NCBI GenBank assembly: GCA_025934645.1
Contig: JAICWY010000002.1
Span: 1-64,000 of the forward strand
Direction of reading: 5' to 3'
Source of the DNA: Vulcanimicrobiia bacterium
Lineage (GTDB): Bacteria; Vulcanimicrobiota; Vulcanimicrobiia; Vulcanimicrobiales; Vulcanimicrobiaceae
DNA length: 64,000 bases
The notes under the pieces were generated by a model. That model worked only from the letters and a program-made list of their open reading frames with translations. It was not told the DNA's origin and ran no database searches. A program made the translations under genes and the position numbers. Below, in pieces: positions 25,610-43,783 of the stretch. Each line of letters begins with the position of its first letter. Positions within the stretch are counted from its first letter, which is position 1.

Positions 25610-27652
25610 TTACGGGACGTTTTGACCGGATACCACTGCGTTGATGAGGTGGCCCGCGAACGGGACGCCGAGGCCGGTGACCAGGTCGTACCCCTTTCCG
25701 GCATCGTATCCGGGCATGTACGAACCCGAGGGCGTCGGCAGCACGGAGAGGTCGCCGTTACTGCCTGCCAGCACGTCGTAAAACGTGCTCGCGTACGGCG
25801 CGGGCTTGCCGTAGACGGCGTAGAGCAGCGCGTTCGGGTTGCCCATGCGCCACGGATGCGCCCCTGTCGCGACATCACAGGTGCTGCTTGCCTTGCAGGC
25901 CTGCAGAACGACGGCCCACATGGCAGCCATTTCCGGCGCGGCTGCACTGGTGCCGCCGGACGGTCCTACTCCGGATTGGCTGGGATACGCGGCATTCATA
26001 ATGAGCGCCGGTCCGGTCAACGGATCGGCGAGCATTGCAACGTCGGGCTCGGCTCGTTTGCCGCCGAGAGACGCGTTCGGAGCCGTCAAGCCGTTCTGGA
26101 ATGCCGGCGCTGCGAAGAACTGCGAGATCGCGCCGCCGCTTCCCGGTGAATTGTCGCCGTATCCGTCACCCCCGAGCGTCGTGTTGTTCGCCCAAGCGGT
26201 GATCTGCGCGCCGGACGGCAAATTGCCGGCGCTATCCATCGGATAGTTCACGCCGCCGACCGAAACTACGGAGGGATCCGATGCCGGATACGAGGCGCAG
26301 AACTGCGACGTCGGCCCGCCCGTGTTTTGATCGATGCACTGATGCGCGCCGTTATCGCCCGATGAAACGAACACGGCAATCCCCTCGCTCGCGAGCGCGG
26401 CGAACTCCGCCGGTCCAATGCCATTTCCGGTCGCACCGAAATAGCCGATCGATTCAGCAGAAGGCTCGTCCAAACCGTAACTGAGCGAGAGCGCGTCCGC
26501 TGTGTTGTCGGCGATAGCTTGTTGGATCTCGTCATCGGCGATCGGCAACCCGATGACGCCGGTGCACGGCAGTCCGGCCGTCGCGCAATCCTTCGTGTTG
26601 TATGCCAAATAAAAGAAGACGTTGGAGCCGGGGGCCAATTGCGCCGCCTGCTCGGTGTCGAGCTGCGCTTCACCATCCTCCGGATTACAAGTCGTCGACG
26701 TGAGGCCGTCTCCGAGCGGCTGGCTTCCCTGCGGCGGAACGCACGGCGCCGTTACCGGCGGGGGCGGCGCAAGTCCGGTTGCGTCATCGTACGCGCCCGT
26801 GCCCGTGCTGTTGTTCGCCGGGCTAGGCGACTGCGCAACCGCCGGCACGACGGCAACTTTTGCGACGGAAACGTTGCTGAATCTGCCGATAGCAGGCACA
26901 TCCGCGGACGAAACTGGGCCGGTGCCGATGATGCCGATGCTAATGCCCGCGCCGGTATATCCCGCGGCCGAGGCGCCCGTGAAATCGAATGCACGCCGCA
27001 GTTGTGCGCCCGACATTCCCAAGATATTTCCGTTGCCCGGACGGATGAGATAGTTGCGCTTCAGATCCAGATGCACTAAGCCCAGCACGCCCGAAACCGG
27101 AACAGGTTGCGAAAAATGCGGCTGCTGCGCGGGCCCAATGAACGTGCGTCCGTACGCGCGGTACGTTCCGAACTTCGTTCCGAACGCCGCTTCCATATCG
27201 CTCCGGCTTCCGGTAACGATCATGGTCAGATGCTGCGGCCACGACCCGACGGCAAGATGATATTTTTGGAAGTAGCCGGCAGCGGCGTTGTACGCATCCT
27301 GCGACGCGCCGAACCGCGATCCGATCTCCTGCGGCGTGAGGAAATGCCTGTAAAGGGCTGAGGCGGGATCGCTCGCCATCTTCGCATATTGCAGCAGGCC
27401 GGGAAGATTCTGCGCTTGCAGTTGCACGTCGACCGACATCGAGCCGGCATTTGCGGCGGCAACGTATTGCGCGTGGCTCATGACACCGGCGCCCCACGTG
27501 AAGTTCGAGAGCTGCGCCGGCCCGGTATAGGGCTGAATCGTAGACTGCGGCGTGGGCGGCGCGACATGCTGCGAGCCGCCGCCGCAACCGCTGAAAATCA
27601 ACATGGCCGATGCGGCGAATGCCGCCGCCGGAAAGCGAACGCGCGCGGACAT
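25610..27652 (-). CDS. S53 (sedolisin-type) serine-carboxyl peptidase, putative lipoprotein
   Basis: GEAQLDTE, SSGDNG, GGTSAAAP catalytic motifs; pro-domain; SGCGGG after signal peptide. Confidence 0.9.
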   Translation of the reverse strand: MSARVRFPAAAFAASAMLIFSGCGGGSQHVAPPTPQSTIQPYTGPAQLSNFTWGAGVMSHAQYVAAANAGSMSVDVQLQAQNLPGLLQYAKMASDPASALYRHFLTPQEIGSRFGASQDAYNAAAGYFQKYHLAVGSWPQHLTMIVTGSRSDMEAAFGTKFGTYRAYGRTFIGPAQQPHFSQPVPVSGVLGLVHLDLKRNYLIRPGNGNILGMSGAQLRRAFDFTGASAAGYTGAGISIGIIGTGPVSSADVPAIGRFSNVSVAKVAVVPAVAQSPSPANNSTGTGAYDDATGLAPPPPVTAPCVPPQGSQPLGDGLTSTTCNPEDGEAQLDTEQAAQLAPGSNVFFYLAYNTKDCATAGLPCTGVIGLPIADDEIQQAIADNTADALSLSYGLDEPSAESIGYFGATGNGIGPAEFAALASEGIAVFVSSGDNGAHQCIDQNTGGPTSQFCASYPASDPSVVSVGGVNYPMDSAGNLPSGAQITAWANNTTLGGDGYGDNSPGSGGAISQFFAAPAFQNGLTAPNASLGGKRAEPDVAMLADPLTGPALIMNAAYPSQSGVGPSGGTSAAAPEMAAMWAVVLQACKASSTCDVATGAHPWRMGNPNALLYAVYGKPAPYASTFYDVLAGSNGDLSVLPTPSGSYMPGYDAGKGYDLVTGLGVPFAGHLINAVVSGQNVP

Positions 27653-29007
27653 TAGCGCACCTCCTTGCGGGCGAGCGACACGAGGTAAGACGCGAACTTC
27701 ATCTCGCGTTGATGGCGCAGCCGCTCGACGCGCAAAGTGAAGGCCGCCGTCGCAGCCGCGACATTCGAGGGTTCGAACGCCGCGGGTATTGCGGATTGCG
27801 TCCTGCGCTCCGAGCTTTGAGCGGTCGCGCTTTGGAGGGTCAGCGTTTGCGTAACGGTCGTCGTCGAAAGCGCCGTGCCAGGGAAGTGCAGATGAAAGCC
27901 CGTCGCCGTTGCGAAGTCGTCCTGATAGTCGTAGTAATCTTGTTGCACGTCGGACAAGGTGACGCACACCGGTCCATACTGCGGATTCGTGTAGGTCGTC
28001 TGCGTTTGGTTATCGGTGTATCCCAGAATCGTGTCCGTACGCACCGTCGTTTGCGTCAAGGTGTTGCCTGACGTTCCGTACGATGCCGGAACGGCGCAAC
28101 TTTGCGGATACGCGATACCCGTTGCAACCTTCGTAGATTGCGAATACAACGTGGGCGTAGTTCCGTACCACATGGCGGACGTATACACACGCGGGGTGAT
28201 GGTGGGCGCGGGCGCCGGCGAGGGCTGCCCCGAAGCGGCCGGTGCAGGCGTCGGCGGCTGCACGAAATTCATCGTGATCGTGATTTGATTTGCGGATGGC
28301 GCCGAGAACACGAATCCGCTGACTTGGCCGTCGAGATACGCGCCGTTCGTCGTATATGTGCCGCTCCCGTCCGCCTTTTCACCGATGCTCGCGCTTACGC
28401 CCGTATTTTTGTTGCTGAGCGCCTCTGTGTACGTGCCGTCGTTCGCGTAGGTGCGAGTACTGGTGGTTCCGTCTGCATCTTTTTCGGTGAACGCGACGCC
28501 CGCGGAGTTGGTCCACGTTGCGGCGCTTGTTTCCGGAAGCTGGTCCAAAATCTCCGGAGCGGCGTATTTTGCCGCGAGCGTATCACCCGAATCGTCTGCC
28601 GTTGAGTATCCGTACTCGACCAGATTTGCGCCGCTCATGCCCAGCCACGCATCGGTCGTCGCGGTATGCGTTACGAGCGCAGCGGCATCGGTTTCAATAG
28701 TGTGAAAATCGCCCGCGCTCGCGGGCCCGTACGGATTGGCTGCGGCCGTGACGGTTACGTCTTGCGTGATGTTCACCAGCGTATTCACCGATGGATACGG
28801 CGAGGGCGAGGGATAGACGTACGATGCTGCAGTCGTCTGCGCGCCGCTAAATTTGTACGTGTGGCCCAGCGCGTAAGGCGTGGGTGAAGGCGTCGGCGCC
28901 GCAGGGGCTTGCGGAACGGCTCCGCCGCCGCCTCCGCCTCCGCCGCCACATGCAACGAGGGCCGCCGATATGACGGCGAGCCCGGCGGCAAAAAACCCGG
29001 TTCTCAA
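27652..29007 (-). CDS. hypothetical lipoprotein with poly-Gly N-terminus
   Basis: LVACGGGGGGGGG lipobox and Pro/Thr-rich stalk; stop/start overlap with S53 gene; start uncertain (TTG 29007 or 29082). Confidence 0.65.
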   Translation of the reverse strand: MRTGFFAAGLAVISAALVACGGGGGGGGGAVPQAPAAPTPSPTPYALGHTYKFSGAQTTAASYVYPSPSPYPSVNTLVNITQDVTVTAAANPYGPASAGDFHTIETDAAALVTHTATTDAWLGMSGANLVEYGYSTADDSGDTLAAKYAAPEILDQLPETSAATWTNSAGVAFTEKDADGTTSTRTYANDGTYTEALSNKNTGVSASIGEKADGSGTYTTNGAYLDGQVSGFVFSAPSANQITITMNFVQPPTPAPAASGQPSPAPAPTITPRVYTSAMWYGTTPTLYSQSTKVATGIAYPQSCAVPASYGTSGNTLTQTTVRTDTILGYTDNQTQTTYTNPQYGPVCVTLSDVQQDYYDYQDDFATATGFHLHFPGTALSTTTVTQTLTLQSATAQSSERRTQSAIPAAFEPSNVAAATAAFTLRVERLRHQREMKFASYLVSLARKEVR

Positions 29008-30399: not shown

Positions 30400-30900
30400 T
30401 TAAACTTTGGCGCGTTCGGCTAGGCGTTTTTCGACGTAGGGTTGTAGGCCGCCGGCTTCGATTAACGATTGCATGAACGGCGGAAAGGCTGCGGATTTAT
30501 ACGACGTGCCTTTGGTGAGATTGCGGATCGTGCCGCTCGGCGGGTCGATCTCGATCTCGTCGCCGGATTCGATGCCGTCCACCGCTTCTGGCGCCTCGAA
30601 GATCGGCAGGCCGATGTTCAGCGCGTTGCGATAAAAGATCCGCGCGAAGCTCTTCGCGATCACCGCCGAGGTGCCCGAACCCTTGATCGCGATCGGCGCG
30701 ACTTCGCGGCTCGATCCGCAGCCGAAGTTCGTGTCCGCGACGATGATGTCGCCGGTTTTCATGCGCGACGTGTACTCCGCGTCCAGTCCTTCGAGCGCGT
30801 GTTTACCGAGTTCGGCAGCGTCGATGATGTTACAGTACTTGCCCGGGATGATGACGTCGGTGTCGACGTTCTTGCCGTATTTGTGAGCGTTGCCGCGCAT
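30400..30900 (-). CDS. leuD: 3-isopropylmalate dehydratase small subunit
   Basis: GNAHKYGKNVDTDVIIPGKY, DTNFGCGSSREVAPIAIKGSG. Confidence 0.92.
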   Translation of the reverse strand: MRGNAHKYGKNVDTDVIIPGKYCNIIDAAELGKHALEGLDAEYTSRMKTGDIIVADTNFGCGSSREVAPIAIKGSGTSAVIAKSFARIFYRNALNIGLPIFEAPEAVDGIESGDEIEIDPPSGTIRNLTKGTSYKSAAFPPFMQSLIEAGGLQPYVEKRLAERAKV

Positions 30901-32184
30901 TTATACTCCTACCGCTGCCAGCGTGCGAGGATCGGTAATGACGCCGGTGAGCGCCGAAGCGGCGCACGTCGCGGGCGATCCGAGATAGACTTCCGCTTTC
31001 GGAGAACCCATGCGGCCGACGTAATTGCGGTTGGTGGTCGAGATACAGCGCTCGCCGTCGCCCAGCGTGCCCATATGACCGCCGAAGCACGCGCCGCAGC
31101 CGGGCGTGTTGACGACGCAGCCGGCCGACGCGAGTATCGTGAGAATGCCTTCCTGCGCCGCTTGCATCCAGACTTTCTGCGAACCCGGATTGACGATGAC
31201 GCGCAGATTCGGCGAAATGCGTTTGCCGTCGAGAATCTTCGCGACGATGCGAAGATCTTCGATGTAGCCGTTGGTGCACGAGCCGATGAAAACTTGGTCC
31301 ACCGGAATGGTCTCGTTGGTCACTTCGGAGATCGGATGCACGTTGTCCGGGGTGTGCGGACACGCGACCTGCGGTTCGAGCGATGCGACATCGATCTCGA
31401 CAATCCGCTCGTACATCGCATCGGCATCCGCGCGCTCGACCAGAAAGTCGCGGTTCGTACGTTCTTTCACGTACGCGATGGTCTTTTCGTCCGCGTGGAA
31501 GATGCCGTTCTTCGCGCCGGCTTCGATTGCCATGTTCGCCATCGTAATGCGGCCCGTAATCGAGAGGTCGTCCACCGTCGTGCCGTGATACTCGATCGCG
31601 CGGTACGTCGCACCGTCGATCCCCAGCGTGCCGACGGTTTTGAGCATGATGTCCTTTGCGAACACCATTTCGCCCGGCGTGCCGTTATAAACGATCTTTA
31701 TCGAAGGCGGAACGCGGAGCCACACTTCCCCCAGAACGAATGCCGCAGCAATATCCGTCGATCCCATTCCGGTTGCGAACGCGCCGAACGCGCCATAGGT
31801 GCACGTGTGGGAATCGCCGCCGACGATGAGCTCGCCCGGCGCCACCAGGCCTTCTTCCGGAAGCACGACGTGCTCGATGCCGCCGCGTCCCACATCGAAG
31901 AAGTGCTTGATGTTTTGCTCGCCGGCGAAGTCTTTCATCAGTTTGGCGAGTTTTGCCGACTGCGCGTCCTTGGCGGGCACGAAATGGTCTTCGACCAGCG
32001 CGATTTTTTCGTTGTCGAACACGCGGTCCGCGCCTTTGATGTTGCGCATCACGCCGATGGCGACGGCGGCGGAGAGCTCGTTCGCGAGCACCAAGTCGAC
32101 CTTCGCGTTGATGATCTGCCCCGGTTCGACGCGGTCCAGACCCGCATGACGCGCAAGAATCTTCTCGGTCAGGGTCATGCCCAT
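30901..32184 (-). CDS. leuC: 3-isopropylmalate dehydratase large subunit
   Basis: VGGDSHTCTYGAFGAFATGMGSTD, IGSCTNGYIEDLR, GCGACFGGHMG. Confidence 0.94.
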   Translation of the reverse strand: MGMTLTEKILARHAGLDRVEPGQIINAKVDLVLANELSAAVAIGVMRNIKGADRVFDNEKIALVEDHFVPAKDAQSAKLAKLMKDFAGEQNIKHFFDVGRGGIEHVVLPEEGLVAPGELIVGGDSHTCTYGAFGAFATGMGSTDIAAAFVLGEVWLRVPPSIKIVYNGTPGEMVFAKDIMLKTVGTLGIDGATYRAIEYHGTTVDDLSITGRITMANMAIEAGAKNGIFHADEKTIAYVKERTNRDFLVERADADAMYERIVEIDVASLEPQVACPHTPDNVHPISEVTNETIPVDQVFIGSCTNGYIEDLRIVAKILDGKRISPNLRVIVNPGSQKVWMQAAQEGILTILASAGCVVNTPGCGACFGGHMGTLGDGERCISTTNRNYVGRMGSPKAEVYLGSPATCAASALTGVITDPRTLAAVGV

Positions 32185-32250: not shown

Positions 32251-33498
32251 ATGCAAGATCGCCAGTTCGGCTTTTCCACTCGTGCCATCCACGCAGGCAC
32301 ACCGCCCGACCCAGTCACCGGTGCGCGCGTCGCTCCCATCTATCAAACGGCAGCTTTCGTCTTCGGTTCGACCGAGCAGGCGGCCGAGCTCTTTCAATTG
32401 CGCAGCTACGGCCACATCTACAGCCGCATCAGCAATCCCACCGTGTCGGCGTTCGAGGAGCGCATGGCCAGTCTGGAGGGCGGACTCGGCGCGATTGCAT
32501 TTTCGAGCGGGCTTGCGGCGCAGCTCGGCGTCGTGCTGACGCTCGCGCAAAACGGCGACCACATCGTCAGCTCGCAGAACGTTTACGGCGGAACCGTGAC
32601 GCAGTTCAGCATCACGCTCAAGCGCATGGGCATTGAAACGACATTCGTGCCGGTGGACGACTACGACGCGATCCGCGCGGCAATTCAGCCGAACACGAAG
32701 ATGCTGTTCGCGGAGACGATCGGCAACCCGTCGGGTGCACTTGGCGACATCGGCCGGCTTGCGCAGATCGCGCACGACGCCGGCATTCCGCTCGTGGTGG
32801 ACAACACGTTCGCATCGCCCGCGCTCTACCGGCCGATGGAACACGGTGCCGACATCGTCGTACATTCGGCGACGAAATTCATCTCCGGACATGGCGCGGT
32901 GATCGGCGGCGTCCTGGTGGAGTCGGGATGTTTTCCGTGGGAGAACGGCAAGTTTCCGCTGCTCTCGCAGCCGAGTCCCGGCTATCACAACAAAGTCTTC
33001 ACGGAAACCTTCGGCGAGTACGCGTTCCTGATGCGCGGACGCGCCGAAGTGCTGCGCGACGTCGGTTCTCAGATGTCGCCCATGGATGCGTGGCTGCTGC
33101 TAATCGGATTGGAAACGCTCCCGATCCGCATGAAAGCGCACGTGGAGAACGGCCGCAGGATCGCGGCCTATCTGCAATCGCGACCGGAAGTCGAATGGGT
33201 GAACGCGCCGGCGATGGGTTCGATCTTCACGTTCGGCATTCGCGGCGGACGCGAAGCCGGGCGCCGTTTCATCGACGCGCTCGAACTCTGGAGCCATTTG
33301 GCCAATGTAGGCGACGCGAAAAGCTTGGTGATTCACCCGGCCTCCACCACGCATTCGCAGCTTAGTGATGAAGAGATGCGCAAGGCCGGCGTCGCGCCGG
33401 AAATGGTCCGTCTTTCGGTAGGATTGGAAGACGCGGACGATCTCATATGGGATCTGGAGAACGCCCTGCGCGCGGCCGTCGAACCGGTGAACGCATGA
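32251..33498 (+). CDS. O-acetylhomoserine sulfhydrylase-like PLP enzyme (Cys/Met metabolism family)
   Basis: STRAIHAGTPPDPVTGARVAPIYQTAAF, SATKFISGHG PLP lysine region. Confidence 0.92.
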   Translation: MQDRQFGFSTRAIHAGTPPDPVTGARVAPIYQTAAFVFGSTEQAAELFQLRSYGHIYSRISNPTVSAFEERMASLEGGLGAIAFSSGLAAQLGVVLTLAQNGDHIVSSQNVYGGTVTQFSITLKRMGIETTFVPVDDYDAIRAAIQPNTKMLFAETIGNPSGALGDIGRLAQIAHDAGIPLVVDNTFASPALYRPMEHGADIVVHSATKFISGHGAVIGGVLVESGCFPWENGKFPLLSQPSPGYHNKVFTETFGEYAFLMRGRAEVLRDVGSQMSPMDAWLLLIGLETLPIRMKAHVENGRRIAAYLQSRPEVEWVNAPAMGSIFTFGIRGGREAGRRFIDALELWSHLANVGDAKSLVIHPASTTHSQLSDEEMRKAGVAPEMVRLSVGLEDADDLIWDLENALRAAVEPVNA

Positions 33499-33977
33499 TT
33501 CTGGACACCGTTTCCGCGCGCCGCGATCTGCTCGAGGGCAGTACAACCGTCGCGATGATCGGCGCGTCGTCGAACCCGCTGCGCCCTAGCTACACCGTGT
33601 TCAGTTATTTGCGCACGCAAAGCCGGTATGAAGTCACGCCGATCAATCCGACCATTACGGAGATCGACGGCGTTCCGGCATTTCCGTCGCTTACCGCGTA
33701 CGCGCAAGCGCACGGCGCGCCGGACATCGTCGATGTTTTCCGCAAGCCGAGCGAAGTGGTGCCGATCGTGCAAGAAGCGATCGCCGCCGGCGCAAAAGCG
33801 ATCTGGTTCCAATACGGCGTCATCAACGAAGACGCGATCCGCCTGGCGGATGAAGCGGGCCTCCTGGTCGTCGTCGATCGCTGCATCAAAGTGGAATACG
33901 CGCGCCTGAGCGGCGGCCTCTCTACGAGCGGACTCAACAGCGGTCTGATCTCCAGCCGCCGCCGCAGCCTTTCGTGA
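33495..33977 (+). CDS. CoA-binding-domain protein (YccU-like)
   Basis: VAMIGASSNPLRPSYTVFSYL, VDVFRKPSEVVPIVQEAI; ATGA overlap. Confidence 0.88.
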   Translation: MILDTVSARRDLLEGSTTVAMIGASSNPLRPSYTVFSYLRTQSRYEVTPINPTITEIDGVPAFPSLTAYAQAHGAPDIVDVFRKPSEVVPIVQEAIAAGAKAIWFQYGVINEDAIRLADEAGLLVVVDRCIKVEYARLSGGLSTSGLNSGLISSRRRSLS

Positions 33978-35065
33978 GCGCGTACGGCGCAGAAGCGCAA
34001 GCGCTGGACGCAGCGATTCTGGGCGCTATCGAACAGCGCCGCGTGACGGACTTCAACGCGCTCGCGTTGCGCATTTTCTCGCATCAGCTGCGCTACAACA
34101 AGCCGTATGCGCAGTACTGCGCTTCGCTCGGCGTAACGCCGGACCGCCTGCCGGAGAACTGGGAGGCGATCCCGCCCGTGCCGGCCGGCGCGTATAAAGA
34201 AGCGGCGTTGTGCACCTTCGATCCGGCGCAAGCGGCGCTCGCATTCGAGACCAGCGGCACGACGCGAGGCGTCGGCGGCAAACATTACATGGAGACCGCG
34301 GCGCTCTACGACGCGGCGCTCCTTGCCGGCTTTCACGATGCCATGCTCTCCGGCGCCGCGCAGCCGCTGCGCTATCTGCTGCTCGTGCCTAATCCGGCGG
34401 AGCGTCCGCAATCCTCGCTCGGCTATATGATGCGGAAAGTCGCCGAGACTTTCGGCGACGGACGCGAAGGCTGGTTCATCGGCGGCGATACGCTCGACGT
34501 CGATGGATTTCTCGCCGCCGCCCGCGCCGCGCAAAAAGCACACGCGCCGGCGTGCGTTGCGGGTACGGCGTTTGCATTCGTGGAGCTGCTCGACGCGCTA
34601 CAGGCGCGCGGCGTTTCGTCACTTGGGCTCCCGCCCGGCTCGCGCATTATGGAAACGGGCGGCTTCAAGGGCCGCACGCGTGTCGTTCAACGCGCGGAGT
34701 TGTACGCCGCTCTTGCGGACATTTTCGCCCTCGGACAAGATCGCATCGTCGCCGAGTACGGCATGACGGAACTCACAAGCCAGTACTACGATGCAACGTT
34801 CGAAGGCGCGCGCATCAAACGTTCTCCGCCATGGCTGCGCCCTCGCGTCGTCGGACCCGATAACACGACGCTGCCCAAAGGCGTCGTGGGCGCACTCGTT
34901 CACGTCGATCTTGCCAATCGTTCCTCTTGTATCGCGATTCAAACCGAAGACTTGGGCGTGGCAACCGAAGATGGCGGCATCGTTTTGATCGGGCGCGAGC
35001 AAGGCGCCGAACTGCGGGGCTGTTCGCTCGACGCGGAGACCCTGCGAACCCTGGCGGTTCGTTGA
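33974..35065 (+). CDS. LuxE-like acyl-protein synthetase (adenylate-forming)
   Basis: AFETSGTTRGVGGKHYMET, AEYGMTELTSQYYD, C-terminal GAELRGCSLDAETLR; GTGA overlap. Confidence 0.88.
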   Translation: MSAYGAEAQALDAAILGAIEQRRVTDFNALALRIFSHQLRYNKPYAQYCASLGVTPDRLPENWEAIPPVPAGAYKEAALCTFDPAQAALAFETSGTTRGVGGKHYMETAALYDAALLAGFHDAMLSGAAQPLRYLLLVPNPAERPQSSLGYMMRKVAETFGDGREGWFIGGDTLDVDGFLAAARAAQKAHAPACVAGTAFAFVELLDALQARGVSSLGLPPGSRIMETGGFKGRTRVVQRAELYAALADIFALGQDRIVAEYGMTELTSQYYDATFEGARIKRSPPWLRPRVVGPDNTTLPKGVVGALVHVDLANRSSCIAIQTEDLGVATEDGGIVLIGREQGAELRGCSLDAETLRTLAVR

Positions 35066-36288
35066 CGGCGCTCGCCAACGTTCCAGCGCGCAAAATCGTG
35101 CGGGCGGTCGCGGGCGCCGCGGAGCGTTGGAGCGACGGTGACTTTCCGCCGCGCGTGCGCATACTGGATCGCATTGCGCAGCGTACGGAATACTCGCTGC
35201 CCGCCGTAGAGTACGCGTTGGACCGGCTCTTCTTCTCGATGACCGAGCGCGAACTGCTCGCGGCGATCGTAAACGAACTGGGCAGCCTGGATGCGCTCGA
35301 TGGATTCGTTGCGCGCGAAGGCCGTCCGGACGCGTGGGCCTCCCCCGCGGGTAGCGCATGCATCATCTCGAGCCGCACCACGATCGGCGTCGCCCTTACG
35401 CCGGCGATCTTCGCGCTTTGCGCGAAATGCGACGTGCTGGTCAAAGACCGCGAAGATTTACTGGCGCGGGCCTTCTTCGAAACACTCGCCGAAGAGCGCG
35501 AAGAGTTCGGCGTTGCGGCGCGTGCCGCCGCGTGGAACTCCGCCGATGCCGCCGCGCCGGACCTTCGCACGTTCGACGTCGTCGCGGCCTATGGCGGCGA
35601 GGATGCGCTTGCGTCGATCCGCTCGTCGCTGCACGCGCAGGCTCGATTCATCGGCTACGGTCCGCGGGCGAGTGCCGGTTATATCACGCGCGAGTCGCTT
35701 GCCTCGCCCAAAAGCATCGCTGCAATCGCAGAAGGCGCGGCGCGCGATCTCGTTCTGTACGAGAGCGAAGGTTGTCTCTCGCTGCACGTGCTCTTCGTCG
35801 AGAACGGCGGCACGCAAACGCCGCTGCAATTCGCGCAGATCTTCGCGCGAGCCGTCGAGGCTGCGAGCGTAGAGTTTCCTCCGGGAAGCGCGGAGCCCGC
35901 GCTCCGCGCGCAACTATCGCATCTGCGCAATGTGGGCGCCTTTCGCGCGGCCGGCGGGCGCGGCGCCGTGTTTGCAAACGACGCAGCCGAGTATCTGCTC
36001 GAATACGACCCGCCGCGCGATGAGGCGCCGCACTTTTTGCCGCGAACGCTGGGCATCATTCCGGTCGACGGACCGCAGGACGCGCTAACTTACGTGCGCG
36101 CGCACCGCTTACCGCTCGAAGGCTTCGCGATTTCGGGCGATCGTCCCGACGCCGTTCAAGCCGCTCTTGAAGCAGGGGCAGTACGCCTCGCCCGCTTTGG
36201 CGAACTGCAGAACCCAACGCTCGCCGGCGGCCATGGAGGCCGTCCGCGCATCGCGGAGTTCGTCCGCTGGATCGATAAAGCACTTTGA
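35062..36288 (+). CDS. LuxC-like acyl-CoA/acyl-protein reductase
   Basis: VAAYGGEDALASIRSS, VLYESEGCLSLHVLFVE candidate active-site Cys; directly after luxE-like gene; TTG start in TTGA overlap. Confidence 0.85.
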   Translation: MTALANVPARKIVRAVAGAAERWSDGDFPPRVRILDRIAQRTEYSLPAVEYALDRLFFSMTERELLAAIVNELGSLDALDGFVAREGRPDAWASPAGSACIISSRTTIGVALTPAIFALCAKCDVLVKDREDLLARAFFETLAEEREEFGVAARAAAWNSADAAAPDLRTFDVVAAYGGEDALASIRSSLHAQARFIGYGPRASAGYITRESLASPKSIAAIAEGAARDLVLYESEGCLSLHVLFVENGGTQTPLQFAQIFARAVEAASVEFPPGSAEPALRAQLSHLRNVGAFRAAGGRGAVFANDAAEYLLEYDPPRDEAPHFLPRTLGIIPVDGPQDALTYVRAHRLPLEGFAISGDRPDAVQAALEAGAVRLARFGELQNPTLAGGHGGRPRIAEFVRWIDKAL

Positions 36289-37583
36289 ACGACGACGCCC
36301 TCGAAGAGATAGTCACCGCGGTTCCGGGGCCGCGCACGCGCGATTTGGCGCCGCATTTGCGCGCGTACGAGTCGCGCAACGTCACGTTCGTCGACGAACG
36401 TTTTCCCGTTTTCTGGGAATCTGCGTCAGGCGCGACCGTTACGGACGTGGACGGCAACCGGTACATCGATCTCACATCGGCATTCGGCGTCGCCAACACG
36501 GGACACAGCAATCCGTATGTCGCCGCGGCAATTCACGATCAGGCCGTGCGGTTGATGCACGCAATGGGCGACGTGCATCCCACCGAAGTAAAAGTCAAAC
36601 TGCTCGAAAAGCTGGCGCAGATCGCTCCGGGATCGCTGTCGAAAACATTTCTCGCCTCCACCGGCGCAGAAGCGGTCGAGGCCGCGCTCAAAACGGCGAT
36701 GCTTGCGACGGGCAAATCGGCCTTCGCTTCCTATCGCGGCGCGTATCACGGCCTCTCGCTCGGAACGCTCGAGATCTCCGGTATCGAAAAATTCCGCACA
36801 CCGTTCGCAGCGGTTCTTCCGAAGAAAGCGCTGGCGTTGGACTACCCCGCCGCGGATGCGCGCCGGCCCGATGAAGGCCTCGCGGCGGCGCTCGAAGAGG
36901 CTCGCGCGGCGTTGCGCTCGCGCAGCGACCTTGCAGCGCTCGTCGTCGAGCCGGTGCAAGGCCGCGGCGGATCGATCGTACCGCCGAACGGCTATCTCTC
37001 CGGCCTGCGCGCGATCTGCGACGAACTCGGCATCTTGCTCGTCGTCGATGAGATCTACACCGGATTCGGGCGGACGGGCACGATGTTCGCATGCGAACAC
37101 GACGGCGTGGTTCCGGACATCATGTGCGTGGGCAAAGCGCTCGCGAACGGCTTTCCGATCTCCGCAACGATTGCAAAGCCGGAGATCATGGATGCCTGGC
37201 CCATATCGCCCGGCGAAGCGCTGCACACGTCGACCTATCTTGGCAATCCTATGGCTTGCGCGGCGGCGCTCGCGAACATCGGCGAGATCGAGCGCATGGA
37301 TCTTCCGGCACGCGCGCGGCAACTGGGATCGGCGCTCGGCTCGCGCCTGGGCGCGCTGCACGCAGACGGCCGCGTGAAGGCCGCGCGCGGACGCGGTCTG
37401 ATTTGGGGAATCGAACTCGAAAGCGGCGAGCGCGCCGAACACGTCGTGAAAGAGGCGCTGCGGCGCGGCGTCATCGCGCTGCAGGCCGGCCCGCTTGGGA
37501 ACGTTCTTTCGATTACGCCGCCGCTCGTTATCTCCGAGCGGCAGCTCTTCCGCGCTATCGACATCCTAACGGAGTGCTTGTGA
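36285..37583 (+). CDS. class III aminotransferase (GabT-like)
   Basis: VVDEIYTGFGRTGTMFACEHDGVVPDIMCVGKALANGFPISA; TTG start in TTGA overlap. Confidence 0.93.
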   Translation: MNDDALEEIVTAVPGPRTRDLAPHLRAYESRNVTFVDERFPVFWESASGATVTDVDGNRYIDLTSAFGVANTGHSNPYVAAAIHDQAVRLMHAMGDVHPTEVKVKLLEKLAQIAPGSLSKTFLASTGAEAVEAALKTAMLATGKSAFASYRGAYHGLSLGTLEISGIEKFRTPFAAVLPKKALALDYPAADARRPDEGLAAALEEARAALRSRSDLAALVVEPVQGRGGSIVPPNGYLSGLRAICDELGILLVVDEIYTGFGRTGTMFACEHDGVVPDIMCVGKALANGFPISATIAKPEIMDAWPISPGEALHTSTYLGNPMACAAALANIGEIERMDLPARARQLGSALGSRLGALHADGRVKAARGRGLIWGIELESGERAEHVVKEALRRGVIALQAGPLGNVLSITPPLVISERQLFRAIDILTECL

Positions 37584-38605
37584 AATATAAAGTCGGAATT
37601 ACCGGCGCCGGTTTCGGCGCGCGCGTGCACGTGCCGGCGTTCTCCGCGCATCCCAACTTCGAGGTGGTCGCGATCGCCTCGCCGCACCGCGCCGAGAGTA
37701 TCGCGCGCGAACGCAGCATTCCGCACGCGTTTGCGACGTGCGAAGAGATGCTCGCGGGCTGCGAGCTCGACGTCGTGTCGATAGCTGCGCCGCCGTTCAC
37801 GCACCACAACGACGTGCTCGCTGCGCTCGCTGCCGGCAAGCACGTCATCTGCGAGAAGCCGTTCGCCTTGTCCGTCGCACAGGCCGAAGAAATGGTTGCG
37901 GCTGCAAAGCGCGCGGGCACCGCGACTGCCGTGATGCACGAATTCCGCTGGGTGCCGCAGCGCATGGCGCTAAAAGAGCTGATCGACAACGGTCATCTGC
38001 AGCCGATGCGCGAGATCGAGATCTCGCAGCTTGCCGGATTCTTGCGCGAAGACGCAACGCGCAAACGCGGCTGGTGGTTCGAACGCGAAAAGGGCGGCGG
38101 CATCGCCGGCGCGCTCCTCTCGCACATCATCGACTCCGCGAACTGGTTCGCGGGCCGGCCGCCGCAACGCGTGAGCGGGTTGCTGCGCACCGCAAATCGG
38201 GTGCGGCACGACGCCGAGGGCGAATTCACGAGCAACGTGGATGACGGCGCTTTCGCGCTTCTTGACTACGGCGAGGGCCTCGTCGCGCGTCTTGCGGTGG
38301 ACGGAACATCGCGCGTGGAGCAATCGACGTACGCGGTGCACGCGGAGAACCGCACGGCCGTCGCAAGCGGCACGGACGTGCATGACATGCGTCTGTTTAG
38401 CGTGGACCCGGAAGAAACCAACGAACTGGATTGCAAGCCCTCACCCTACCGGCAAATGGCGTCGGTGGACAAGCATGTTCCGCTCGTCATGCAATTGCTC
38501 GACGAGTTCGTAAAACTCATCGAGACCGGCATCAGCACGGTCCCGACTTTCCAAGAAGCGCTAGAAACGCAACGCGTCCTAAAGGCGATCGGCTTCGGCG
38601 GCTGA
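37580..38605 (+). CDS. Gfo/Idh/MocA-family oxidoreductase
   Basis: KVGITGAGFGARVHVPAFSAHPNFEVVAIAS and AGKHVICEKPFALSVAQAEEM; GTG start in GTGA overlap. Confidence 0.93.
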   Translation: MKYKVGITGAGFGARVHVPAFSAHPNFEVVAIASPHRAESIARERSIPHAFATCEEMLAGCELDVVSIAAPPFTHHNDVLAALAAGKHVICEKPFALSVAQAEEMVAAAKRAGTATAVMHEFRWVPQRMALKELIDNGHLQPMREIEISQLAGFLREDATRKRGWWFEREKGGGIAGALLSHIIDSANWFAGRPPQRVSGLLRTANRVRHDAEGEFTSNVDDGAFALLDYGEGLVARLAVDGTSRVEQSTYAVHAENRTAVASGTDVHDMRLFSVDPEETNELDCKPSPYRQMASVDKHVPLVMQLLDEFVKLIETGISTVPTFQEALETQRVLKAIGFGG

Positions 38606-38621: not shown

Positions 38622-40277
38622 TTATGGCGACGGGTCGCCGACCGCGGCGGCCATCGCCTTATAAACGTTTAAACGTCCGCAACCCTGCCGTACGTTACTA
38701 ATATTCGTAGCGTTGTTACAGAGAAGCGTCTCGACATTGCTTGGCGCCACGCCGACGCTGAGCAGCAGTGCCGCGGCGCCCGCAACATGCGGAGTCGCCT
38801 GTGACGTACCGGCAATGAGGATGCGGCAGTCGTTTTGGCCGGTGGCAACGTTGGGATCGGGACGGCAAAACGAACTCGAGTCTGCCGCTTGAGATGTGTA
38901 CAGATTTTCGATCCAATGATAGGTGTCACCGTCGTTCGCATCGGAAGCGGTTCCGCCCGGGGCAACAAGCCCCCACGTCGCCGGATGGGATGCATCGTAG
39001 TTTGAATACGATGCAACGGTTTCCGTAACGGTCGACGTTGAATCGTCGAGACCTGAAGCGCCTACTGCGATCACGCCCGGATCGGCGCCCGGATAATCAA
39101 GCATCGAGGAGCTTTCGTTTCCGGAAGCCGCAACGACTACGACACCCGCTCGAACTGCAGCGGCGACTGCTGTTTCTTCCGCCGAGTCCGCCGAGGGTGA
39201 GCCCAGACTCATGCTAATGACTTTAGCGCCTTGCGCTACCGCATGTTGTATCGCCAGTCCAACATCGGACCCTTGCGCATCGCAGCCTTTTGTCCCGCAA
39301 TTGGTATTTGGAAAGACCCGGAAAATCATGAGCGGCGCATTGTACGCAACGCCGGCAAACCCAAAGCCGTTACCGCCGATTGCGGCCGCGATGCCGGCAA
39401 CATTGGTGCCGTGACCATCAGTATCGGTTACCGCCGAAGTGCCGACGGTCGTGACGCCGCCGACATCGCTTTCCGCGTAGATGATGTGAGAGGTGAGCTC
39501 GGGATGCGTCGTATCCGCGCCCGTATCGATAATTGCAATCGGGAACGAATTCGAGCCACCCAAGGCGCCGGGATATGTCTGCGCGGTGGAATTCGCGTTC
39601 CCGTAACCCCAAGCATTTGCTGCGCAGATCGCGTGCATATCCCATTGACCGCCGTAGTTCGGCCGTTGGTACAGCGGTGGCGATGCCGGTACGGAAATGC
39701 CGAGGAACAGGGGGTCATTCGTAAACGCCGCCGTCGTTGACAAAAGGTGACGAACGGCCGTGCGCGAGGCTTGCTCCACTACCGGATTGGCTCGGAGCAC
39801 CGCAAGCGCAGCATCTTCAGTGCCCGGTTCAACGTGAAGGATCTGGACGAGTTTGCCGGCCGCCGGAAAGTCCAGCTGCCGTTGTTCCGTACCACGTGCT
39901 GCCGAAACGGAACGGGCTATGGCGTCTTGCTCGGACGTGAATGAGGCGCGTTTGTAGACGACCTCAATTTGTCCGCTCACGTATCCACTGCTCGCCATTT
40001 GAGGTAAGCGCTTGCGGAGAACCCGGTTGTCGGGCGCTCCGGAAGAAATCGCCTGACGCATGAAGGCTTGAGGCGCGCCGGCCGATGTGCAGTTTAGCGA
40101 TGACGCATACGCCATCGGCGAAGGAAGCGGTGTCGGACTCGGAGATACCGGAGGCAGCGTCGGGGCAAGCGTCGGTGCAGGCGTTGAAGGGACGGGTCCG
40201 CCGCCTCCTCCGCCGCACGCGGTCAGAGCAAAAGCGAACGCACCGACCGTTACAAAGGCGAAGCCGCGACGTGCCAA
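38622..40277 (-). CDS. S8 subtilisin-family peptidase, lipoprotein
   Basis: IIDTGAD, DGHGTNVAGIAA, IAGTSQATPHVAGAA; LTACGGGGGG lipobox. Confidence 0.93.
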   Translation of the reverse strand: MARRGFAFVTVGAFAFALTACGGGGGGPVPSTPAPTLAPTLPPVSPSPTPLPSPMAYASSLNCTSAGAPQAFMRQAISSGAPDNRVLRKRLPQMASSGYVSGQIEVVYKRASFTSEQDAIARSVSAARGTEQRQLDFPAAGKLVQILHVEPGTEDAALAVLRANPVVEQASRTAVRHLLSTTAAFTNDPLFLGISVPASPPLYQRPNYGGQWDMHAICAANAWGYGNANSTAQTYPGALGGSNSFPIAIIDTGADTTHPELTSHIIYAESDVGGVTTVGTSAVTDTDGHGTNVAGIAAAIGGNGFGFAGVAYNAPLMIFRVFPNTNCGTKGCDAQGSDVGLAIQHAVAQGAKVISMSLGSPSADSAEETAVAAAVRAGVVVVAASGNESSSMLDYPGADPGVIAVGASGLDDSTSTVTETVASYSNYDASHPATWGLVAPGGTASDANDGDTYHWIENLYTSQAADSSSFCRPDPNVATGQNDCRILIAGTSQATPHVAGAAALLLSVGVAPSNVETLLCNNATNISNVRQGCGRLNVYKAMAAAVGDPSP

Positions 40278-40341
40278 CGAGGTGTCCTCCGAAAAAAGTG
40301 ACCGCTATTGTTATCGGCCGCTTTCCGGCATTCCCGCGCAG

Positions 40342-42114
40342 CTACGGGCTAAGGTCGCCCACGGCGGAGGCCATCGCCCTGTACACGTTCAGACGCCCAC
40401 AACCCGACTTTATGCCGGCGATCGGCGTCGCCGTGGAGCAAAGCAAGTTTTTTATCGCGCTTGCGTGCGCGCCCACGCTGAGCAGCAGCGACGCCGCGCC
40501 TGCGGCATGCGGAGCGGCTTGCGAGGTGCCGGCGATGAGCACGCGGCAATCGACGCGGCCGCCGTCGTTCCCGTCGGCGGTACAAAAGCCCGACGAATTC
40601 GACGACTGCGACGTGTAGATATTTTCAATCCAGTGCAGCAAGTCGCTATCGCTGCTTCCGGCCGGGTCTCCGCCCGGCGCCACGATGCCCCACGACATCG
40701 GATTGGAGCCATCGTAGTTGGAGTACGATGCGACCGTTTCTTTGACGACGCCGCTGGAATCGTCAAGCGCGGAAGCGCCGACCGCCAGAACACCCGGATA
40801 CGCAGCGGGATAATCGAGCCTCGATGCTTGTTCGTTGCCCGCTGACGCAACTACGACGATGCCGGCCTTTATCGCACTAGCGACGGCGTTTTCTTCCGCC
40901 GTATCGACGCCCGAAGATCCGAGGCTAAGGTTGATCACTTTCGCGCCGTGCGAGATCGCATGCTGAATGGCTATGGCAATGTCGGTGCCGAAGGCGTTGC
41001 ACCCGCCGCTCGCGCATGGCGGATCCGGAAAGACTTTGAAGATCATGAGCGGCGCCGCGTATGCAACGCCGGCAAAGCCGAACCGGTTATTTCCCGCGGC
41101 TGCCGCGATGCCGGCGACGTCGGTTCCGTGCCCATCGCCATCGTCCGCGCTTCCGACGTTCGTTACTCCGCTCAGGTCGCTCTCGGCATAGACGATGCGG
41201 CCCTGCAGATCGGGATGCGTGCTATCCGCGCCGGTATCGATAATCGCGATCGGCGCCGTGCCTCCGAGCGCGCCGGCGTGCGTCATGCCGGTCGAATTCG
41301 CTTTCCCGTAGGCCCAGGCGTTCGCGGCGCAGATCACATGCATATCCCATTGACCCGCGCTATCGGGAGCCTCGTAGAGCGGCGGTCCGTTTTCGGGCGC
41401 AAAGCCGTCGAAATACGGATCGTTTGGAAATGCGCTTGCCGCATTCGTCGAAAGCTTGTAGCGAATCGCCGCACGCGAAACGTCGCGTACGAGAATATCC
41501 GATCGTAAACGCGCGATCGCGCGATCTTCTTCGCCCGGCGCGACGTGGACTATTTCCGTTACGCGGTCGAGGTTCGCGAAATCGATCTCGCCGGCGGCCG
41601 CCGCGTCCGCATCCGATAACTCGCGCATCGCCGCAGCGCGATGCGCGAGGAACATTCCGCGTTCGTACGAGACTTCGATGGTTCCCGAAGCATACGGCTC
41701 GCGCGCCGCTTCCACGCCGCGCGCACGCACGAACCCCTCGCTGCGCCGTACCGAGAAGGTTCTGCGCGCGATGCTCTGCGGCGCGCCGGGCGTCGTGCAA
41801 TACGTGGATGCGGCGCTGGAAGTAGGAAGCGCGGTTGGCGCTACGGTCGGAGCGGGCGTGGGTGACGGCGTGGGTGCAAGCGTGGGAAACTGCGTCGGAG
41901 CGGCCGTCGGGCTAGAAGTAGGCGCGGAGGTCGGCGCTCCGCTCGGCAGCAGCGTGGGCGAAGTCGTCGGCACGCCGCCCGGCGGCGCAGGCGGAACAGA
42001 CGGCACCGGCGCGGCCGGCACGGACGTCGTGCCGCCGCCTCCCCCGCACGCCGTAAACGCCGCGAGCGCGAGAACCGCTACAAATGCGATGCCGCGGTTG
42101 CGCACCCGCACCAC
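40342..42114 (-). CDS. S8 subtilisin-family peptidase, lipoprotein with long Pro/Thr stalk
   Basis: IIDTGAD, DGHGTDVAGIAA, IAGTSQAAPHAAGAA; FTACGGGGG. Confidence 0.93.
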   Translation of the reverse strand: MVRVRNRGIAFVAVLALAAFTACGGGGGTTSVPAAPVPSVPPAPPGGVPTTSPTLLPSGAPTSAPTSSPTAAPTQFPTLAPTPSPTPAPTVAPTALPTSSAASTYCTTPGAPQSIARRTFSVRRSEGFVRARGVEAAREPYASGTIEVSYERGMFLAHRAAAMRELSDADAAAAGEIDFANLDRVTEIVHVAPGEEDRAIARLRSDILVRDVSRAAIRYKLSTNAASAFPNDPYFDGFAPENGPPLYEAPDSAGQWDMHVICAANAWAYGKANSTGMTHAGALGGTAPIAIIDTGADSTHPDLQGRIVYAESDLSGVTNVGSADDGDGHGTDVAGIAAAAGNNRFGFAGVAYAAPLMIFKVFPDPPCASGGCNAFGTDIAIAIQHAISHGAKVINLSLGSSGVDTAEENAVASAIKAGIVVVASAGNEQASRLDYPAAYPGVLAVGASALDDSSGVVKETVASYSNYDGSNPMSWGIVAPGGDPAGSSDSDLLHWIENIYTSQSSNSSGFCTADGNDGGRVDCRVLIAGTSQAAPHAAGAASLLLSVGAHASAIKNLLCSTATPIAGIKSGCGRLNVYRAMASAVGDLSP

Positions 42115-42117
42115 CCG

Positions 42118-43704
42118 TTAATGCGACTTCGCGTAAGCCACCGCCGCCGCGGCGTCCACGCGACCGCAGCCTTGTTTCGAATCGCTGATATCCGTCGCGC
42201 TATTGCATAGGGCCGCCGCCACTTGTACCGGCGAGTATCCAGGACGTGCCGCAAGAATCAGCGAGACGACACCGGCAACGTGCGGCGTAGCTTGCGACGT
42301 GCCGGCGATCAAGATGCGGCAGTCTGCCGTAGCAGAGGACGACCCGTTGTCCGGCGTGCAGGTTCCTGGCTGAACCGCCGTGCTGGAATAAATATTTTCG
42401 ATCCAGTGCAGGTCGTCGTTGTCGCGCGAGCCGCTCGGATCGCCGCCCGGCGCGACCATGTAGCGTCCGCCGCTCGTTCCGGAAACGAAGTTCGAATACG
42501 TCGCGACCGCTTCTTTTGCAGGCGATACGGCATCGTCGAGCGTGGATGCGCCGACGGCAATGACGCCGGGATCGGCCGCGGGACAATCCAGCGCACTCTT
42601 CGACTCGTTGCCGGCCGCAGCGACGACCACGACACCCTTCGCGATTGCGTTCTCGATCGCTTGATACTCCGGATCGCTCGACGAACATGGACCCGTGGAG
42701 CCCAGGCTCAAGTTGATCACTTTCGCACCGTGCGCGACGGCATCGTTAATCGCGGATGCTTCATCGAACGTGTTCGACTCGCATTGCGCGCTGGTCGAGC
42801 CCTCGCAGCCGGCTGACGGATCCGTGGGGAAAATGCGATAGGCAAGCATTGGCGCGGAGAAGCCGGGACTTGCGAAACCGAGACCGTTGCCGGTATTCGC
42901 ATCCGCGATCCCCGCAACATCGGTGCCGTGCCCGTCGGTATCCGTGACGAACGGGCCACTGCTCTGCGAGGCGCTCGACGGATACGTCACGTAGCACTGC
43001 GTGCGCACGATCTTCCCACCACTGAGCTCGGGATGGTTTACGTCTACACCCGTATCGACGATCGCGATAGGCGCGCCCGTCACCGGAGCGCTCGAGGTCA
43101 CGTCGTTCCAAGCGGTGGACACGTGCATGACGTGCATATCCCATTGGCCCGGCTCGCTAGCCGACTCGTAATACGGCGCGCCCGGACCAAAGCCGATGTA
43201 GTATGGATCGTTCGAGCTGACGGTTTGCAGGTGCCGGTAGGAGATGCGCGAGACCGATTCAACGCCCTGCGCGGATCGCAGCTGCACCATCGCCGCATCG
43301 GTGCGCGATGGATCGACCGAGAGCACGCGCGTGCGTAGACCGAGCGCGTCAAACGTCAGGTCGGCCCGGCGCGAGGCGCCGAGCGTGCCGGCCGCGCGTT
43401 CCAGATCGCTCGTGCGCGCCGAAACTCGATACGTAACGGCGATAGCCCCCGGCACGAAACCCGGCAAGCCGCTCGCGCGCGGGGTCATGCGGCTGAACGT
43501 TGCCGTTCCGGCCGGCGCCGAAGCAAAGCTTTGCGCCGAACTTGCGCTCGACGGACACGAAAGCGATTGCGTCGATGGCGGAGAGCCGCCCGGGAACGGC
43601 GTCGGCGAGACTGTAGCGACGGGCGGCGTACCGCCTCCGCCTCCGCCGCCGCAAGCGGTAAGCGTGAACACGACAGCCAGGGCAGCCCAGAAGAGTCGAA
43701 TCAT
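42118..43704 (-). CDS. S8 subtilisin-family peptidase, lipoprotein
   Basis: IVDTGVD, DGHGTDVAGIADA, IAGTSQATPHVAGVV; LTACGGGGGGG. Confidence 0.93.
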   Translation of the reverse strand: MIRLFWAALAVVFTLTACGGGGGGGTPPVATVSPTPFPGGSPPSTQSLSCPSSASSAQSFASAPAGTATFSRMTPRASGLPGFVPGAIAVTYRVSARTSDLERAAGTLGASRRADLTFDALGLRTRVLSVDPSRTDAAMVQLRSAQGVESVSRISYRHLQTVSSNDPYYIGFGPGAPYYESASEPGQWDMHVMHVSTAWNDVTSSAPVTGAPIAIVDTGVDVNHPELSGGKIVRTQCYVTYPSSASQSSGPFVTDTDGHGTDVAGIADANTGNGLGFASPGFSAPMLAYRIFPTDPSAGCEGSTSAQCESNTFDEASAINDAVAHGAKVINLSLGSTGPCSSSDPEYQAIENAIAKGVVVVAAAGNESKSALDCPAADPGVIAVGASTLDDAVSPAKEAVATYSNFVSGTSGGRYMVAPGGDPSGSRDNDDLHWIENIYSSTAVQPGTCTPDNGSSSATADCRILIAGTSQATPHVAGVVSLILAARPGYSPVQVAAALCNSATDISDSKQGCGRVDAAAAVAYAKSH

Positions 43705-43783
43705 AGAAGCACGGTCCTTGTACCCGACTTTAAGCATCAGGTATGAAGAATACGTGATTTGCCGGGGGAGAGGTTCCCGGCGG

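Follow-up and report, generated by a model that had tools for sequence, protein, structure and literature searches.

The first 64,000 nucleotides of contig JAICWY010000002.1 (assembly GCA_025934645.1) of a Vulcanimicrobiia bacterium, hereafter the window, contain an operon of six plus-strand genes joined by five 4-bp overlaps (ATGA at 33495, GTGA at 33974, TTGA at 35062, TTGA at 36285 and GTGA at 37580). The centre of the operon is made up of genes for a LuxE-like acyl-adenylating, Cys-acylated enzyme (33974..35065; 363 aa; PF04443, 53.9 bits against a cut-off of 24.9), a LuxC-like acyl-thioester reductase (35062..36288; 408 aa, TTG start; PF05893, 123.3 bits against a cut-off of 21), and a class III pyridoxal phosphate (PLP) aminotransferase, apparently of a distinct subfamily (36285..37583; 432 aa, TTG start; PF00202 [Aminotran_3], 361.3 bits). 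These are preceded by genes for an O-acetylhomoserine (OAH) sulfhydrylase of the MetY type (32251..33498; PF01053 [Cys_Met_Meta_PP], 407.8 bits; TIGR01326, 557.6 bits, over the cut-off) and a small CoA-binding (Rossmann) protein (33495..33977; PF13380 [CoA_binding_2], 125.6 bits), and followed by a gene for a Gfo/Idh/MocA dehydrogenase (37580..38605; PF01408, 96.1 bits, plus C-terminal domains). An initial annotation, made from the DNA alone, had described the same reading frames and junctions and had proposed that the operon converts a carboxylate, via an aldehyde, to an amine; the coordinates were confirmed, and all six gene assignments exceed the curated Pfam cut-offs. No luxA, luxB or luxD gene was found among the annotated neighbours examined, as the annotation had also observed, so that this is not a bioluminescence lux operon.

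Both Lux-like proteins belong to their families not only by profile score but also by catalytic residues, namely, the C-terminal acyl-accepting Cys of LuxE (PF04443) and the catalytic Cys of LuxC (PF05893). The conserved features of LuxE include the SGTT, TGGFK and YGMTE motifs, Asp326, Arg341, and a GCS motif with Cys350; the three marks by which the enzyme had originally been recognized are located at residues 94-97 (SGTT), 264-266 (MTE) and Cys350. Lys232, Glu266 and Arg341 are kept in all 69 relatives aligned and Cys350 in 67 of them, both sequences without it being fragmented frames, whereas the catalytic Cys238 of LuxC is kept in 67 of 67 relatives. In a sequence search of the PDB at E values below 0.01, the two proteins matched only the luminescent LuxC-LuxE complex 7xc6 (LuxE to 7xc6_E with E=2.6e-9, the alignment including the GCS around the C-terminal Cys; LuxC to 7xc6_A with E=2.8e-6). 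However, neither reaches the cut-off of the corresponding lux-type equivalog: LuxE scored 40.2 bits against 550 for the long-chain-fatty-acid--protein ligase (NF052244), and LuxC scored 28.7 bits against 750 for the long-chain-fatty-acyl-CoA reductase (NF052251).

We surveyed 117 genomes, 70 of them good, of the class Eremiobacteria (Eremiobacterota/WPS-2), a little-known group of soil and ice bacteria that includes the host of the window; the census as a whole covered this one phylum and collections of plasmids and phages, together with a single search of genome contigs for closely related sequences. LuxE is present in 111 of the 117 genomes, including 69 of the 70 good ones, and LuxC in 109, a few of these being represented by weak aldehyde-dehydrogenase matches only. 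Synteny was examined at 60 LuxC loci from 59 genomes representing three families (45 loci in f1, 3 in f2 and 12 in f3); because relatives do not count as independent samples, the comparison draws its weight from the three genomic settings rather than from the 60 loci. At all 60 loci, LuxC has a class III aminotransferase gene as its same-strand neighbour, within 150 bp in 58 cases and at 240 and 369 bp in the other two. Given that the window assembly encodes only 8 class III aminotransferases in total, this adjacency exceeds what would be expected by chance. LuxE lies no more than 150 bp away in 48 of the 60 loci, and the order LuxE-LuxC-aminotransferase is identical in the three families despite their different flanking genes. 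The f3 LuxC proteins have diverged so far that a search with the LuxC of the window barely detects them, and the f1 and f3 aminotransferases, at 46% identity, still adjoin LuxC. Thus, the core consists of LuxE, LuxC and the aminotransferase; the tight coupling noted initially is supported, and the idea of a joint pathway survived the neighbourhood search suggested for it. The cultured Vulcanimicrobium alpinus WC8-2, for which a complete genome is available, carries all six genes. Among the exceptions, one 96% complete f3 genome (G010) is the sole good genome without LuxE and has only a weak LuxC-family match, and the LuxE and/or LuxC frames are broken in two drafts (loci L087 and L077 of genomes G047 and G022, respectively), probably reflecting assembly errors or decaying copies.

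The remaining genes of the operon are distributed differently. The Gfo gene follows the aminotransferase in 40 of 45 f1 loci, is represented by a diverged copy in 2 of 3 f2 loci, and is absent from all 12 f3 loci examined. It is accordingly an accessory of one order, strongly associated in f1 and weakly in f2, so that the extra redox step assigned to it initially could apply within that order but not to the module at large. Among the 45 f1 loci, the sulfhydrylase gene accompanies the module in 28 and the CoA-binding gene in 37, and neither was seen at any f2 or f3 locus; as neighbours in a single family, both fall outside the core. Of the two roles originally envisaged for this pair, that of unrelated co-transcribed genes stands, whereas participation in the pathway was ruled out. 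A possible extra gene in the LuxE-LuxC interval of some loci was also considered as a hint to the substrate and dismissed, no convincing same-strand gene being found there. In four f3 loci (L058, L059, L060 and L068), the gene downstream of the aminotransferase, in the same orientation, encodes a major facilitator superfamily (MFS)-like protein (Pfam assignment MFS_3 in the case of L060), which possibly exports the product of the module.

The aminotransferase is a class III enzyme by its PF00202 score and its PLP-binding lysine, Lys284, which, together with Asp255, is found in 59 of 60 sequences, with a gap in the remaining one. Hence, the catalytic residues whose mutation the initial annotation had regarded as telling against the pathway (Cys350 of LuxE, Cys238 of LuxC and Lys284 of the aminotransferase) are intact in the alignments. 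The substrate pocket is another matter. In alignment with Escherichia coli GabT, Arg141 is replaced by Leu157, Glu211 by Arg227, Gln79 by Asp96 and Ile50 by Phe67 in each of the 60 sequences, and the position of Arg398 (409) is occupied by Ser, Thr, Ala or Gln, with one Val, and mostly by the first three. Arg141, Glu211 and Arg398, which are established as the carboxylate-binding residues of GabT for γ-aminobutyrate (GABA) and glutamate/2-oxoglutarate, are thus all replaced, and the protein does not qualify as a GabT; the GabT-type Glu and last Arg are retained in ArgD and PatA of E. coli as well as in the ArgD and OAT of the genome to which the window belongs. The gain of Arg227 and Asp96 and the loss of the Arg141/Arg398 pair suggest that binding of the donor or of the substrate departs from the usual glutamate/2-oxoglutarate mode. 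Moreover, none of the 25 NCBIfam matches listed for the enzyme reaches the respective cut-off, and the AlphaFold2 (AF2) model of the enzyme (predicted local distance difference test [pLDDT] score of 93.3) is nearest in fold to GABA transaminases, followed further down by class III racemases. We infer a distinct subfamily that would hold its donor or substrate by another mode. Judging by sequence context and reading, ArgD (beside argJ), OAT, BioA (beside bioF) and two HemL proteins are encoded elsewhere in the genome; because these roles are already filled by dedicated genes, arginine, ornithine, biotin and heme transaminase functions were ruled out for the module enzyme.

Clues to the substrate came from outside the class. 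Plasmid searches with LuxE and, separately, with LuxC led to largely overlapping sets of records, from Pantoea, Azospirillum, Priestia, Niallia, two lactobacilli and one Pseudomonas. The phage collection yielded no relatives. These plasmid operons, which encode the nearest LuxE and LuxC proteins detected beyond the class, have LuxE and LuxC followed by a short-chain dehydrogenase/reductase (SDR) in place of the aminotransferase at all eight loci fetched, and their LuxE proteins are 31-43% identical to those of the class. In the LuxE tree, f1, f2, f3 and the plasmid proteins form one clade, separated by a long, fully supported branch from the LuxE of the other classes of the phylum. Several plasmid loci also encode transporters, namely, NMT1/THI5-like ABC systems in Priestia and Azospirillum and an NCS2 permease in the lactobacilli. 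These transporters prompted the guess of a thiamine link, after which an Rfam search identified a thiamine pyrophosphate (TPP) riboswitch upstream of the operon at seven of the eight loci (L131-L137), the eighth (L130) having the same genes and no riboswitch call. Reduction of an acid related to thiamine, yielding an alcohol, is thus the probable function of the plasmid operons, which would share the acid-to-aldehyde half with the class module while ending differently. Such operons, found in Proteobacteria and Firmicutes, appear to represent an undescribed route of thiamine-related carboxylate reduction. Within the class, ThiC is present in all 70 good genomes, the TPP riboswitch matches lie at thiC, and no riboswitch was found close to the operon, either in the window or at 10 related loci, so that the operon does not belong to a TPP regulon and thiamine control of the module was ruled out. 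The sole inference that we retain from the thiamine link is that this LuxE/LuxC clade may prefer small ring acids.

Taking these observations together, we lean towards the reading that LuxE, LuxC and the aminotransferase constitute a class-wide module converting a carboxylic acid to a primary amine, the acid being more likely small and aromatic, heterocyclic or cofactor-like than a long-chain fatty acid. Read from gene content, gene order, catalytic residues and near-universal occurrence, all of which are observed directly, the reactions and their order would be as follows: LuxE would use ATP to turn the acid into an acyl adenylate, from which the acyl group would pass to Cys350 as a thioester; Cys238 of LuxC would then take over the acyl group, which LuxC would reduce with NAD(P)H to an aldehyde; and the aminotransferase, with PLP on Lys284, would convert the aldehyde to a primary amine, with a further redox step possibly carried out by the Gfo/Idh/MocA protein in one order only. 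The genes, residues and co-occurrence fit the route proposed initially, whereas its chemistry stands as a prediction. Lux-family enzymes are familiar from light production and surface glycans; their near-universal, mostly single-copy presence throughout a whole class, in association with a transaminase whose pocket has been remodelled, points to a housekeeping amine. The SDR operons further suggest small acids related to cofactors as substrates of the clade, and lux-type reductases would then have a wider scope than is currently accepted. In the literature covered, which omits most subscription journals, we found no published LuxE-LuxC-aminotransferase operon and no report of TPP tied to LuxC.

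A small acid that is probably aromatic or heterocyclic is favoured by the TPP riboswitches of the plasmid relatives, by the nucleobase or THI5-like transporters encoded at several of those loci, and by the AF2 model of LuxE, built from class sequences only (pLDDT 90.8), whose top TM-scores are to PaaK, ClxA and EhpF, enzymes that activate aromatic acids. Several observations weigh against the acid-to-amine reading or its substrate. The model agrees only weakly with a small ring acid, because the PaaK-like fold is common to LuxE proteins generally and says little about the substrate; given the universal ThiC and the confinement of the class riboswitch to thiC, the thiamine link of the plasmid relatives does not carry over as regulation; and the racemases among the fold neighbours of the aminotransferase leave amination of a free aldehyde unproven. 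Moreover, in one f1 genus (g5), LuxE no longer adjoins LuxC; the six loci read (L146-L151) have it inverted and next to, or in the vicinity of, the genes for the sulfhydrylase and the CoA-binding protein, indicating that the coupling need not take the form of an operon.

Lux enzymes take long-chain acyl groups, and this known specificity is the natural argument for a long-chain fatty or hydroxy-fatty acid as the substrate, with a fatty amine, perhaps destined for a membrane aminolipid, as the product. The corresponding chemistry has been proven with other proteins in tambjamine YP1 biosynthesis, where TamA and TamH follow the same logic of adenylation, thioester formation, reduction to an aldehyde and conversion to a primary amine by a class III transaminase, although TamA combines adenylation with an acyl carrier protein, TamH is an AAR-type reductase fused to the transaminase, and neither LuxE nor LuxC is involved (PMC9594044). 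The amino donor of that system is L-Glu, whereas the module aminotransferase lacks the GabT-type Glu-binding Arg. An unusual lipid is also plausible in these bacteria. CDP-alcohol phosphatidyltransferases of PF01066 (PgsA, PssA) were detected in 5 of the 117 class genomes compared with 14 of 14 controls, a count that divergent enzymes may have escaped, and phosphatidylserine decarboxylase in 3 of 117, while CdsA, PlsY and PlsC-type acyltransferases are present in 111, 110 and 111 genomes, respectively. The class seems no longer to possess the CDP-alcohol phosphatidyltransferases on which phosphatidylglycerol, phosphatidylserine and phosphatidylethanolamine depend, and the polar lipids of V. 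alpinus are all unidentified (PMC9758169). An amine-bearing lipid would suit a universal acid-to-amine module, and a connection between the two is possible as a conjecture; that the module supplies an amine used throughout the class as a building block, for instance for the head or the tail of a membrane lipid other than a phospholipid, seems to us a long shot. Against a long-chain substrate stand the distance of LuxE from the enzymes of other classes and from the lux-type equivalog, the riboswitch-controlled operons of its nearest relatives, the resemblance of its model to aryl-acid activators, and the lack of a thioesterase or acyl carrier protein in the neighbourhood examined. We therefore regard the fatty or hydroxy-fatty substrates contemplated in the initial annotation as unlikely.

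The plasmid relatives could also be taken to imply that the module itself handles a thiamine-type pyrimidine, with a pyrimidine-5-carboxylate reduced to the aldehyde and then aminated to give aminomethylpyrimidine, from which TenA produces hydroxymethylpyrimidine (HMP) by hydrolysis. The riboswitches, the pyrimidine-compatible transporters at several loci and the sequence identity of the LuxE proteins speak for this proposal; nevertheless, the universal ThiC, the location of the class riboswitch at thiC and the lack of one close to the operon, both in the window and at 10 related loci, make it improbable. Since transamination can proceed in both directions and relatives of the GabT type serve catabolism, the module might instead run backwards and degrade an amine through the aldehyde and acyl thioester to the acid. 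However, an adenylate-forming LuxE with an acyl-accepting Cys represents a biosynthetic activation step, and near-universal single-copy occurrence suits a housekeeping product better than optional catabolism, rendering this direction very improbable. Finally, operons may join unrelated genes, as this one does with those for the sulfhydrylase and the CoA-binding protein, and the aminotransferase might likewise be co-transcribed with LuxE and LuxC while serving a separate pathway. This appears improbable given that LuxC and the aminotransferase remain neighbours in all three families, whose flanking genes differ, and despite the divergence of the f1 and f3 enzymes noted above.

The acid-to-amine module, as we favour it, can be set against several known systems. 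It shares with the LuxC-LuxE fatty acid reductase of luminous bacteria (7xc6) both protein families, the C-terminal acyl Cys of LuxE and the catalytic Cys of LuxC, and differs in the absence of luxAB and luxD, the diverged LuxE clade, a LuxC about 70 residues shorter (408 versus 477), and the transaminase as a third partner. The plasmid operons of Pantoea, Azospirillum, Lactiplantibacillus and others are set apart by their SDR, transporter genes and TPP control. EhpF/EhpG of D-alanylgriseoluteic acid biosynthesis (PDB 3hgv) present a similarly small ANL adenylating enzyme in the pathway of an aromatic (phenazine) acid. Unlike the class LuxE, EhpF belongs to a phenazine cluster, and the two proteins are 14% identical in structural alignment. 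To our knowledge, EhpF/EhpG have no class III transaminase partner. The ehpF gene adjoins ehpG, a gene of the aldehyde dehydrogenase family (PMC11278526). The flagellin glycosylation islands of Aeromonas also encode LuxE and LuxC without luciferase, but there the two genes lie amid those for glycosyltransferases and an acyl carrier protein, and no class III transaminase partner has been described (PMC7874193).

The surroundings of the operon in the window include a divergent isopropylmalate dehydratase pair of the LeuC/LeuD type on the minus strand (30400-32184). A lysine route via homoaconitase was considered for this aconitase-family pair and rejected, as both proteins score high as LeuC/LeuD types. 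A pro-kumamolisin-type S8 protease is encoded farther upstream (25610-27967), three tandem subtilase (S8) genes lie downstream on the minus strand (38622-43737), and five tRNA genes are clustered on the minus strand at 952-2596.

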